64,000 bases of DNA from contig NZ_CP067134.1 of assembly GCF_028553765.1 (NCBI RefSeq), positions 1,903,001 through 1,967,000 on the forward strand, written 5' to 3'. The notes below the pieces were generated by a model that had not been told where the DNA came from, did no database searches, and worked only from the letters and a program-made list of their open reading frames with translations. Of this stretch, positions 49,863-52,872 are shown in pieces (the first letter of the stretch is position 1; each line of letters opens with the position of its first letter). This DNA is from Paracoccus stylophorae (lineage in GTDB: Bacteria; Pseudomonadota; Alphaproteobacteria; Rhodobacterales; Rhodobacteraceae). The position numbers and the translations under genes were made by a program.

Positions 49863-50157
49863 CTTCTTTGCAACTTCACCAGAAAAACGCGCGCCTGTCG
49901 GCCTTGAGAGGGGCAGGATGGCCCGTTGTCCCGCCTATAGACCATGCGCGCGGCAGAGGGAAACCCGCCAGCACCGGCACCCTGCCGGCCTGCCGATGTC
50001 CGCCCGCATGAAAGAGGCTGGCGATATTCGTCATTCATAATGGAAAACAGTCTGCCGCATTATGTGCGATCATATTTGGATTTTTCCAGACATTCGGCGA
50101 TGAATATTGACATGAAGGCCACAATTCGCATCCTTGACATCCAGCCTGGAGAAAGTC
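49863..50157. other. Divergent regulatory region between dusA and the coiled-coil gene
   Basis: A 295-bp stretch whose right half (50020-50130) is unusually rich in A and T for this genome. A good -35 box TTGACA (50107-50112) is followed at 16 bp by CATCCT (50129-50134), a likely promoter for the gene at 50158. No gene was recognised inside. Confidence 0.45.
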
Positions 50158-51801
50158 GTGGCGCGTTTGTGTTTGTCAGCCGGCCCGGCGGCGATGTTTC
50201 TTGCGACCGCCCTTCTTGCGCCCTTGTCGGCGCAGGCCCAGCAACAGGATGCTGAACGCGCCCATGCGCTGCGGCAGATCATCGCGACGATGGATGAGGA
50301 AGTCGCCCAGCTTGAGGCGCGGGCACAGGCGGCGCGCGACCAGCTGGACGATCTGGCGGAACGGCAGGACAAGGCGAAACGGCTGGAGGCCGAGATTGCC
50401 GCGCAACAGGCCGCTTTGCCCGATCTGGAACAGAAAGCCGCCGAATTGCAGCAGGATATTCTTGGCCTGAGGGAAGAACGCGATGCCATGCGGGCCGATC
50501 TGGAACAGCGCGCAGCCATCGCGGTGGAAACCGACCGGCTGGCCGACGAAATGGCGGCGGAACAAGCCGCGCTGGAACAGCTGTCGCAGACCGTCGCGGA
50601 TCGGCAGTCGTTTCTGACCGGAACCGAGGCGCGGACGGATCGGCTGCGTGCCACCCTGCGCCGCCTTGTTGCCGCACGCGATGCCGCGCGATCCGAGGCA
50701 GAGGCGGCAGACCGCAAGCGCCGCGAGGCACAAGAGACGCTGGCGGCGCAGATCGGACCGCTTCGGACCACCATCGACACCATGACCGAACGCATCGCAC
50801 GCGGGCAGAAGGAAGCGTCGGATCTGGATGCGCGGACGGCCGATCTGCGCGCCTCGGTTCAGCAACTGACCGCCGATCGCGACGCGCTGACGGCCGAGGC
50901 CGCAGAGGCGCGCGATACGGCCGACGCGCAGCAGGCAAGGCTGGACGCGCTGCGCGAAGAGGCCGATGCGCTGCGCCGCGACATCGCCGGCCTGACCGAA
51001 GAACGCGACGGGCTGACGGCGGCTTCCGAACGCGCCGCCGCCCTTGCGGCACAGAATGACAGCCTGAGCCGGACAATCGCGGATCAGCAGGCGCAGGCCG
51101 ACCGCCTGCAAGCCAGCATCGCCGAACGCCGGCGCAGCGTCGAGACGCTGGCGGCGCGCGAAGACGAACTGCAACGCGCCATCGGTGAACTGGACGAAAA
51201 CCGTCAGGCGCTGCGCGAAACGGCGGGACGCGCGGATCAGGCCGAACGCGCCGCGCTGCAAGCCGACATCGCAGACATGCGGCAACAGAGGGATGCCGGG
51301 ATGCAGGAACTGTCGGGTCTGCGCGACCAGCTTGCCCGCCTGTCGCAACAGCGCAACGCCTTGGCCGAGGTCGCGACGCAGCTGCAACAGCAGCAGGACC
51401 AAAGCGCGCAGCTGAGCCGGGCGATCGAGGCGCAGCAGCAGGAATCGCAGCAACTGGCCGACCGGATCGCCGCGCAGCGTGACCGGCTTGCGCAGATGGA
51501 AGAAGATGAAGATGCCGCCGAGCCGGCTCAGCCCCCGGACCAGGCCGTGCCACAGATCGGTGCGGCGGTGGCCGTGGACGACACGCCGGATGCGGCCGCG
51601 TCCGCGCCGGGTCGGCGCGCGGCTGACGTGGATGCGGTTCTGTCCAGCGCGCCCGGCCTGCCCCGCGCCGCGGACCGGCTGGACCGGCTGCGCGAATCGC
51701 TCATTGCGGGCGCATGTGCGCCCGATGCACTGCAACAGGTCCAGGACCCCATCAACCGGCAGGCCCTGCTGGCGCTGCTGTCGCGTCTGTCACCCTGCTG
51801 A
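50158..51801 (+). CDS. Secreted long coiled-coil protein of unknown function
   Basis: I do not recognise a family. The 547-residue protein has a signal peptide (GPAAMFLATALLAPLSAQAQ) and then a nearly unbroken heptad pattern rich in Ala, Arg, Glu, Gln and Leu from about residue 30 to 440, as in long periplasmic coiled coils. An acidic linker (EEDEDAAEPAQPPDQ) leads to a C-terminal part (about 480-547) with two cysteines, one of them the last residue (ALLALLSRLSPC). GTG 50158 is chosen because GGAGAA stands 6 nt upstream and gives a compact signal; a TTG 24 bp earlier is possible. It lies 30 bp before a TAXI-type receptor gene, and the two are probably cotranscribed. Confidence 0.85.
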   Translation: MARLCLSAGPAAMFLATALLAPLSAQAQQQDAERAHALRQIIATMDEEVAQLEARAQAARDQLDDLAERQDKAKRLEAEIAAQQAALPDLEQKAAELQQDILGLREERDAMRADLEQRAAIAVETDRLADEMAAEQAALEQLSQTVADRQSFLTGTEARTDRLRATLRRLVAARDAARSEAEAADRKRREAQETLAAQIGPLRTTIDTMTERIARGQKEASDLDARTADLRASVQQLTADRDALTAEAAEARDTADAQQARLDALREEADALRRDIAGLTEERDGLTAASERAAALAAQNDSLSRTIADQQAQADRLQASIAERRRSVETLAAREDELQRAIGELDENRQALRETAGRADQAERAALQADIADMRQQRDAGMQELSGLRDQLARLSQQRNALAEVATQLQQQQDQSAQLSRAIEAQQQESQQLADRIAAQRDRLAQMEEDEDAAEPAQPPDQAVPQIGAAVAVDDTPDAAASAPGRRAADVDAVLSSAPGLPRAADRLDRLRESLIAGACAPDALQQVQDPINRQALLALLSRLSPC

Positions 51802-51831
51802 AAGACCGGCGTCACAACAAAGGAGAGACGC

Positions 51832-52872
51832 ATGCGACTGTCAAAGCCCCTTCGGACCCTGGCGCTTGGCCTTGGTCTTGTTCTTGCGTCGCTGTCGTCC
51901 GGCGCGGCGCAGGAACCGCCCATCAACATCATGACGGGATCGCCGACGGGCACCTATATCCAGTTCGGGCGCGACATGCAGAACCTGATGGCGAATTGCG
52001 GGCAGCAGATGGGCGTGGTCGAATCCGCCGGCTCGCTTGAGAATTTCCTGGGCGTGCGGCAACGGCGGCAGACGCAGTTCGGGATCGTGCAGAACGATGT
52101 GCTGGAATACATGCAGACCTTTGCCGGGCAGGACCCGGCCGTGGCGCGGACGATCCGCGGCGTGCGCATCGCCTTTCCGCTTTACGACGAAGAGGTGCAT
52201 ATCCTGGGCGTGAAGGACATTGGCAGCCTTGCCGATCTTGCCGGCCGGCGCGTGGCCATCGGCACGGAAAACAGCGGCACCTTCCTGACATCGTCGTTGA
52301 TGCTGTCGCTGACCGGGATCGAGCCGGCCGAAAAGCTGACCATCGGCCCGCAAGAGGCGCTGGCCGCGCTGAAGGCCGGCGATCTGGACGCGTTCTTCTA
52401 TGTCACCGGCGCGCCGGCCCCGATCTATGCCGATGAGGACATCGACGGCGACCGGTTTCATCTGGTGCCGGTGGCCGACGACACGTTGCGCAGCGTCTAT
52501 ACGCCGACCACGCTGGCGGCGGGCACCTATCCGTTCCAGACCGAGCCCGTCGATCTGGTCGCGGTCAAGGCGGTGCTGATGACGTTCGAATACGACATGC
52601 GCGGCAACGCCTATCACCGTGCGGCCTGCGACGCGGTGTCGGACCTGTCCTCGCTGATCCTGACCCGGCTGGACGATCTGCGCGAAGACGGTCATCCGAA
52701 ATGGCAACAGGTGGATCTTGAGGCGATCCCGCCGGGCTGGGACATCAGCGCCTGCGTCAATCGCGGCATCAGCCCCGATTACGTTGCGTCCTGCACGGCA
52801 CCCGAGGCCTCGCCCGACAGCGATGCGAACGCCGCCTATCGGCGCAATATCTGCGCGGTGATGGGCTGCTGA
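51832..52872 (+). CDS. TAXI-type TRAP transporter solute receptor without a nearby permease
   Basis: A 346-residue periplasmic solute-binding protein. The signal peptide (TLALGLGLVLASLSSGAAQ) precedes the TAXI-like opening INIMTGSPTGTYIQFGRDM. Further family segments are GIVQNDVLEYM, DLAGRRVAIGTENSGTFLTSSLML and GDLDAFFYVTGAPAPIY. No DctQ/DctM permease is encoded in the window. Six cysteines cluster mostly at the C terminus (ACDAVSD, SACVNRG, ASCTAPE, NICAVMGC), which is unusual for a receptor and suggests disulfides. It ends in Cys, like its coiled-coil neighbour. A sensing or scaffold role is a guess. Confidence 0.88.
   Translation: MRLSKPLRTLALGLGLVLASLSSGAAQEPPINIMTGSPTGTYIQFGRDMQNLMANCGQQMGVVESAGSLENFLGVRQRRQTQFGIVQNDVLEYMQTFAGQDPAVARTIRGVRIAFPLYDEEVHILGVKDIGSLADLAGRRVAIGTENSGTFLTSSLMLSLTGIEPAEKLTIGPQEALAALKAGDLDAFFYVTGAPAPIYADEDIDGDRFHLVPVADDTLRSVYTPTTLAAGTYPFQTEPVDLVAVKAVLMTFEYDMRGNAYHRAACDAVSDLSSLILTRLDDLREDGHPKWQQVDLEAIPPGWDISACVNRGISPDYVASCTAPEASPDSDANAAYRRNICAVMGC

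Follow-up and report, generated by a model that had tools for sequence, protein, structure and literature searches.

A TAXI-Family Receptor Paired with a Coiled-Coil Protein in Alphaproteobacteria: A Conserved Subfamily with a Possible Permease-Independent Function

Introduction

Solute receptors of the TRAP-associated extracytoplasmic immunogenic (TAXI) type are poorly understood and have mostly been treated as parts of tripartite ATP-independent periplasmic (TRAP) transporters. Known glutamate-type members include VcGluP/VC0430 (8s4j, 9ibo; PMC11574862) and TtGluBP (1us4). A different arrangement was reported in 2025 for Bordetella pertussis BP0403, a TAXI-GltS lipoprotein in which, according to the accessible part of the paper, a helical dimerising region is fused to a glutamate receptor and which is coupled to gltS (PMC12344293); orphan solute receptors without an adjoining permease are also known, for example the Bug/TctC proteins (PMC5812351, accessible part). 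Here we describe a gene pair of Paracoccus stylophorae, consisting of a gene for an exported coiled-coil protein followed by a gene for a TAXI receptor, which lies in a 64,000-nucleotide stretch of contig NZ_CP067134.1 (positions 1,903,001 to 1,967,000 of the forward strand; the whole stretch is hereafter called the window) and belongs to a sharply defined TAXI subfamily of some soil and marine bacteria, spanning two orders of Alphaproteobacteria, Rhodobacterales and Hyphomicrobiales.

The window receptor has 23–24% identity over aligned residues to VcGluP and TtGluBP, from which it differs by the lack of an adjoining permease, by the coiled-coil partner gene and by a four-cysteine tail. As in BP0403, so far as the available text describes that system, a glutamate-pocket TAXI receptor is tied to a helical element and not to a TRAP permease; unlike that single gltS-coupled lipoprotein, coil and receptor are separate proteins here, and gltS is missing from each of the 11 genus genomes that carry the pair. 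The receptor gene resembles those of the Bug/TctC orphans in having no adjoining membrane partner, whereas no obligate partner gene is described for those orphans in the accessible text and the receptor studied here has one in 80 of 80 loci. Searches of an open-access library listed no paper on a TAXI receptor with a separate coiled-coil partner. The pair offers a testable case for solute receptors recruited to tasks besides import, and the subfamily delimits proteins that are now annotated as TRAP transporter subunits or hypothetical proteins and adds an end domain without family match.

Distribution of the Pair and Its End Domain

A pattern scan of GTDB species genomes gave 169 receptor relatives, the best 80 of which were kept, comprising 62 Rhodobacterales-type loci (two of them metagenome-assembled genomes named only Alphaproteobacteria) and 18 Hyphomicrobiales loci. 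In all 80, a conserved C-terminal end domain containing two cysteines is encoded directly before the receptor gene on the same strand, and the domain also directly precedes the receptor in three plasmid records. In Rhodobacterales, the domain carries APGL close to its start, followed by G.C...AL, by iNRQtL and, last, by LG.C, while most Hyphomicrobiales have the same two cysteines plus VP..TLRNL. It has no Pfam or NCBIfam match and is almost exclusive to receptor pairs: among 63 genomes searched, it was present in 41 of 41 pair genomes and in 0 of 22 pair-less genus genomes, and 41 of the 43 copies in those 41 genomes belonged to receptor pairs. A search of a large protein set returned nothing at E ≤ 1e-5 and was uninformative, as known relatives were missed too. 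Across the class, only 2 of 337 genomes had the end domain, so the pair system is patchy.

The same patchiness is seen at closer range. The receptor was found in 10 of 36 same-genus (Paracoccus) genomes with 62–70% identity, and a distant match (36% identity) without such a partner was detected in G026; four of the 36 (G017, G030, G033 and G034; 71–88% complete) were excluded from the ATPase, ABC-transporter, GltS and end-domain counts. None of 24 same-class genomes had a receptor match at E ≤ 1e-20. In the family sample, with the best candidates of each genome scored, the receptor was present in 14 of 394 genomes including the window's own (40–63% identity outside the window), and a 60-residue end-domain profile identified the same 14 at E ≤ 2e-22, adjoining the receptor, with six further matches at E 0.002–0.009. 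One genus genome of this sample (G083) had neither a receptor nor an ATPase match. Relatives in the genus, the family and the GTDB-wide scan rule out a pair private to one strain.

The original prediction for this DNA had proposed that the two genes act as one unit without a dedicated permease, to be doubted if the pair were not conserved beyond the strain or if a permease were tied to the receptor elsewhere in the genome. Pairing in 80 of 80 loci across two orders, co-occurrence in the same 14 family genomes and a permease near only one of the 80 loci strongly support that proposal. The distinctive end domain, the glutamate-type pocket and the associated ExeA-like ATPase described below were not part of it.

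Receptor Pocket and C-Terminal Tail

The receptor is a TAXI protein, as had been predicted; it has the TAXI fold and scored 122 bits against TIGR02122 (cut-off 84.35) and 90 bits against Pfam NMT1_3 (cut-off 27); a Hyphomicrobiales relative (L203) reached 124.6 bits against TIGR02122. All five side chains that contact glutamate in VcGluP are identical in the window receptor (Y42, S68, Q87, E120 and Y190), and each of these positions is kept in 79 or 80 of the 80 relatives; such retention of the pocket implies that ligand binding matters. To judge from these residues, the ligand is probably L-glutamate or a close analogue. Other known residues of the glutamate site are changed, with M201 replaced by V and the water-holding Y46 and H123 by I and Y, so that the exact ligand may differ from that of VcGluP.

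The C-terminus is distinctive in another way. A terminal H[PE]G[AS] motif is present in all seven other TAXI proteins of the window genome and in 0 of 80 pair receptors, a criterion that was taken from those seven proteins and not from a publication. The compared VcGluP fragment stops short of the motif.

Permeases and GltS

Eight TAXI genes were found in the window genome (G000). Six fused TRAP permeases of this genome exceed the TIGR02123 cut-off, and every one of them adjoins a TAXI gene other than the one studied here. No permease gene adjoins the pair in the window, as the original prediction had stated, and none was found tied to its receptor elsewhere in the genome. That prediction had also treated the orphan state as remarkable; the state itself is confirmed, whereas orphan TAXI genes alone are unremarkable, because a second TAXI gene without an adjoining over-cut-off fused permease sits at C1:1661124-1662092 of the same genome (L003, L215), and Y, S and Q of the glutamate site are retained in its product. 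Among the 80 loci, a search by tblastn with one permease as query, in which 13 loci had shortened flanks, detected a fused permease near a single pair (L195, two partial matches). The missing neighbouring permease and the missing terminal motif together make delivery to a cognate permease unlikely as the main task of the receptor.

It is nevertheless conceivable that the glutamate receptor docks in trans to a TAXI permease or another secondary carrier encoded elsewhere and that the only role of the coil is to tether or dimerise it or to concentrate it near the membrane, much like the helical region of the Bordetella TAXI-GltS protein. An intact and strongly conserved pocket agrees with this, and docking of this kind could occur because all 24 pair genomes examined carry over-cut-off fused TRAP permeases somewhere. 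A suitable permease may well exist, as L002, a permease-adjoining TAXI protein of the window genome, has the same five glutamate-site residues; moreover, the accessible parts of two papers describe a dimerising helical domain in a TAXI protein working with a non-TRAP carrier (PMC12344293) and a permease-linked L-glutamate TAXI system in the related Cereibacter sphaeroides (PMC12632250). However, 79 of 80 loci had no detected adjoining fused permease with the one query used, each of the six permeases of the window genome has its own TAXI neighbour, and the terminal motif of the seven other TAXI proteins is missing from all 80 pair receptors. GltS (PF03616) was found neither in the window genome nor in any of the 11 genus genomes that carry the pair, which rules it out as the partner of the receptor there, and was present in 3 of 13 other pair genomes. 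On balance, docking in trans appears rather unlikely.

The Coiled-Coil Partner

The original prediction had described the partner as an exported 547-residue coiled coil of no recognised family with heptads over about 400 residues, and both the position of its gene and this description held. Behind its signal peptide, the protein has a coiled coil of some 435 residues, and a short linker with many proline and acidic residues joins this to a compact end; export signals on both proteins of the pair were recognised by eye, in agreement with the prediction. Hydrophobic residues (V/I/L/M/F, residues 29–480) recur with a peak at 3.50 and a power of 5.6, compared with a maximum of 1.4 in 500 shuffles, and with a broader set (A/V/I/L/M/F/W/Y) the heptad signal was weaker and was equalled by 7 of 500 shuffles. 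No Pfam or NCBIfam model exceeded its cut-off, and the matches listed were to coiled-coil or otherwise helical families.

The coil varies widely in length. Measured from the N-terminal hydrophobic segment to the stop, partners span 289–1,017 residues (median 613) in 56 Rhodobacterales-type loci and 295–485 residues in the 18 Hyphomicrobiales loci, with L138, L149 (a split gene), L150 and three loci cut by contig ends (L162, L191 and L193) omitted. In Paracoccus albicereus (L150), the partner has an intact open reading frame of only 171 residues, with a signal peptide, a short helix-like stretch and the end domain. All 18 Hyphomicrobiales partners begin with a short tail containing WGR, followed by a hydrophobic helix. 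In Paracoccus acridae (L038, L149), the coiled-coil reading frame is split in two by a frameshift or an assembly error, and the receptor frame is open.

The partner might also serve as a filament on which the receptor stores or scavenges glutamate, buffering or retaining the ligand in the periplasm or outside the cell, which would agree with the export signals on both proteins and with a coil too long to span the periplasm upright. A more specific task is suggested by the patchy distribution (14 of 394 family genomes) together with the dedicated end domain, and one partner has no long coil at all; a store of this kind is therefore very improbable.

An Associated ExeA-Like ATPase

A third gene, convergent with the pair, follows it in 41 of the 62 Rhodobacterales-type loci, with the profile match starting 7–545 bp after the receptor match; two of the 62 have less than 1.5 kb downstream, and the gene occurs in 40 of the 60 with room. 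It was present in 15 of 20 retrieved neighbourhoods, one copy being cut by a contig end and one split in two. The product contains an ExeA-type AAA ATPase domain, a hydrophobic segment, a Sel1 repeat and a further conserved domain without a name. Walker A and Walker B motifs were found in all 13 aligned ATPases, including the Walker A of the window genome, which reads AxxxxGKT and was missed by the strict pattern; the hydrophobic segment before the Sel1 part was also present in all 13, weakly in some (mean hydropathy 1.3–2.2). Like the ATPases of TIGR03015, an XrtA/PEP-CTERM-associated model of a GspA/ExeA-type family, these proteins have an AAA domain carrying Walker motifs as well as a hydrophobic segment, and their C-terminal part may likewise be periplasmic; unlike them, the three tested scored below the cut-off of 324.5 (226, 171 and 46 bits), and the C-terminal part is a Sel1 repeat plus the unnamed domain.

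Presence of this ATPase follows that of the pair. Within the genus, its C-terminal part was detected in all 11 genomes with the pair and in none of the 22 without it, and at E ≤ 1e-40 in 7 of 14 pair genomes of the family sample and 0 of 380 others. With the window's own genome excluded, Fisher's test gave p 1.6e-8 for the genus (10/10 vs 0/22) and p 3.5e-10 for the family (6/13 vs 0/380), values that ignore relatedness and serve only as a guide. The ATPase seems to depend on the pair and not the reverse.

Some copies are unlinked. The single copy of the window genome lies at C1:8459-10180, where its neighbours are type I secretion genes, a LuxR-type regulator and two proteins that match no family; a tree joins it to a G003 copy in a similar position (support 99/97) within a clade of pair-linked copies. 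In Aliiroseovarius sp. S1339 (L223:7900-11150), an unlinked ATPase gene is convergent with a gene for a second exported coiled coil that bears the end domain, and no receptor was found within 20 kb of it. In P. albicereus (L222:7557-11719), the ATPase gene is convergent with a long coiled-coil-like reading frame that has a different, unnamed C-terminus, no end domain and no receptor. Nothing in Pfam exceeded the cut-off on the coiled-coil-like proteins of either locus. These loci, each with an ATPase and a coil but no receptor, suggest an association of the ATPase with a coiled coil and of the receptor with the end domain. In G032, a second end-domain copy stands at the contig start (C29:10-183), and an unlinked ATPase gene lies about 78 kb further on the same contig.

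Such loci also bear on a different explanation, in which the coil and the ExeA-like ATPase are an envelope assembly factor, a scaffold for building or placing a secretion or polysaccharide export complex, and the receptor is a structural or regulatory addition. Besides the two genomes with a receptor-less coiled-coil gene, this agrees with the resemblance of the ATPase to TIGR03015 (226 and 171 bits, below 324.5), with the presence of type I secretion genes no more than about 10 kb from four unlinked ATPase copies (L116, L117, L118 and L120) and one pair-linked copy (L042), and with the role of ExeA in secretin assembly, as given in the accessible part of the source (PMC4098917). Against it, the pocket residues are retained almost invariably, the Hyphomicrobiales pairs come without a strong ATPase match, and the close type I ABC transporter is found not only in pair genomes (5 of 24, 75–100% identity) but also in genus genomes without the pair (5 of 22, 68–70%); an assembly factor seems improbable. 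On the same counts, the type I secretion cluster was rejected as a regular component, although the ABC transporters of pair genomes are more alike and four unlinked ATPases lie near such genes.

Matches to the C-terminal profile also occur outside the ATPases. Those of moderate strength in G371 and G188 are Sel1-type genes, each beside an OmpA-like gene (by eye), and were rejected as ATPases because the AAA part is absent; for the moderate match of G781, no Walker A was found in the frames listed. At L121 and L123, Sel1-type genes near OmpA-like genes (by eye) match the profile without an AAA part and are perhaps a related envelope module.

Proposed Mechanism

The most likely of the readings considered, to which we give about even odds, is that the pair forms a permease-independent TAXI receptor-stalk complex, a single extracytoplasmic module. 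Here, the receptor would bind L-glutamate or a close analogue and would be carried by the dedicated coiled-coil stalk, with the two-cysteine end domain as the likely docking site; contact between the two proteins, and any disulphides formed by their cysteines, are predictions from sequence. What stays constant in the partner is the end domain, and this lies next to the receptor almost without exception; a receptor on a dedicated holder is the simplest interpretation. That the receptor is held by the coil, as the original prediction had suggested alongside signalling, fits the conserved end domain; signalling by the receptor is only an inference.

The receptor may report its ligand, or be displayed or positioned in the envelope, more probably than feed a transporter, and sensing, display and positioned scavenging are candidate tasks. 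In Hyphomicrobiales, the N-terminal helix of the stalk would anchor it in the inner membrane and leave the short WGR tail in the cytoplasm. For many Rhodobacterales, a freely exported stalk is proposed, and the predicted inner-membrane ExeA-like ATPase with its periplasmic Sel1 repeat would be the likely cytoplasmic link, on which the receptor might act. More tentative is the fuller proposal of a permease-free, stalk-mounted glutamate receptor that reports the external amino acid through the WGR-tail helix in Hyphomicrobiales or through the ExeA-like ATPase in many Rhodobacterales. If true, a solute-binding protein would be wired here in a new way that differs both from transport and from the known docking to sensor kinases.

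Several observations weigh against a receptor-stalk complex. Coiled coils rise by about 0.15 nm per residue, and a fully extended coil of 435 residues would measure about 65 nm, longer than the periplasm, so that a simple upright stalk is unlikely there unless the coil doubles back or is oriented flat. The ATPase is not found with every pair: no match at E ≤ 1e-40 was obtained in seven of the 14 family pair genomes, and of 15 Rhodobacterales pair genomes lacking a neighbouring copy, 13 had none at E ≤ 1e-30 (best values 2e-39, 1.5e-33 and 2e-22, with weak matches or none in the other 12; L171, L172 and L175 are counted in both this set and the family sample), while 15 Hyphomicrobiales pair genomes had no match better than 4e-9. 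The two best of these values belong to the unlinked copies of Aliiroseovarius sp. S1339 and P. albicereus. In G108, one of three strong matches to the C-terminal profile is in a protein without an AAA domain. Two of the 43 end-domain copies have no close receptor (a second copy in G789 and the one at the contig start in G032), and absences in the family sample are of limited weight, since only the best candidates per genome were scored (5 for the receptor, 16 for the end domain and 8 for the ATPase). No regulator or kinase was recognised as a constant neighbour of the pair, which leaves any output to guesswork. Finally, a DctP-type TRAP operon follows the pair of Paracoccus seriniphilus at a distance of about 3 kb, with the ATPase gene and a regulator gene in between; DctP-type TRAP systems possess their own receptor.

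Organization of the Locus

Coordinates are collected in Table 1. The two genes of the pair are separated by 30 bp, as predicted. One AT-rich promoter region had been proposed for both: the upstream stretch is AT-rich, with a G+C content of 0.42 compared with 0.61–0.80 within both genes (120-base steps). No sigma-70-like consensus site was found on its + strand, and one promoter common to both genes is no more than plausible.

Table 1. Features of the gene pair, given as positions in the window.
Feature	Position	Strand	Basis or remark
AT-rich region 5' of the pair, probable promoter region	50020..50139	+	Base composition
Coiled-coil partner gene	50158..51801	+	GTG start, 547 aa; alternative TTG start at 50134 gives 555 aa
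Predicted signal peptide of the coiled-coil protein, residues 1–27, ending in AQA	50158..50238	+	By eye from the sequence
Coiled-coil region, about residues 30–465; length differs among relatives	50245..51552	+	
Conserved C-terminal end domain, 60 aa, two conserved cysteines (residues 520, 547)	51619..51798	+	Alignment
Ribosome-binding site AAGGAGAG of the receptor gene	51820..51827	+	Read in the sequence; good site
TAXI-family receptor gene with glutamate-type pocket (Y42, S68, Q87, E120, Y190)	51832..52872	+	ATG start, 346 aa
Receptor C-terminal tail, four cysteines (308, 321, 341, 346), without H[PE]G[AS] motif	52726..52869	+	Alignment, motif count

Other Neighbouring Genes

A role in anti-phage defence was rejected: with PADLOC, the coiled coil had six weak matches and the receptor none, and of two ATPases examined, one had no match and the other a single weak one (TRIP13).

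Nitrogen-related genes recur in Hyphomicrobiales, where a glnA-like gene is near the pair in 15 of 18 loci and a P-II-like gene in 13 of 18 (identity confirmed at one locus). In most of these loci, such as L189, L203 and L204, the pair is convergent to glnA, followed by the P-II gene. A link to glutamate or nitrogen is tempting, though we interpret the arrangement as conservation of gene order.

The type I secretion cluster of the window genome lies outside the window, near the chromosome start (C1:8459-20823; L116, L126), and comprises the ExeA-like ATPase, the LuxR-type regulator, a PrtD-type ABC transporter (TIGR01842, 702 bits), HlyD, a 1,099-residue protein rich in S, D, G and N, and a 705-residue protein without a Pfam or NCBIfam match; related genes are grouped in G003 (C33) and G108 (C37). 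A second type I secretion set (ABC transporter and HlyD) was observed beside a cyanophycin synthetase-like protein at L117/L128, with a PGA_cap domain in addition in L117, and at L042, where it lies about 6 kb from the pair.

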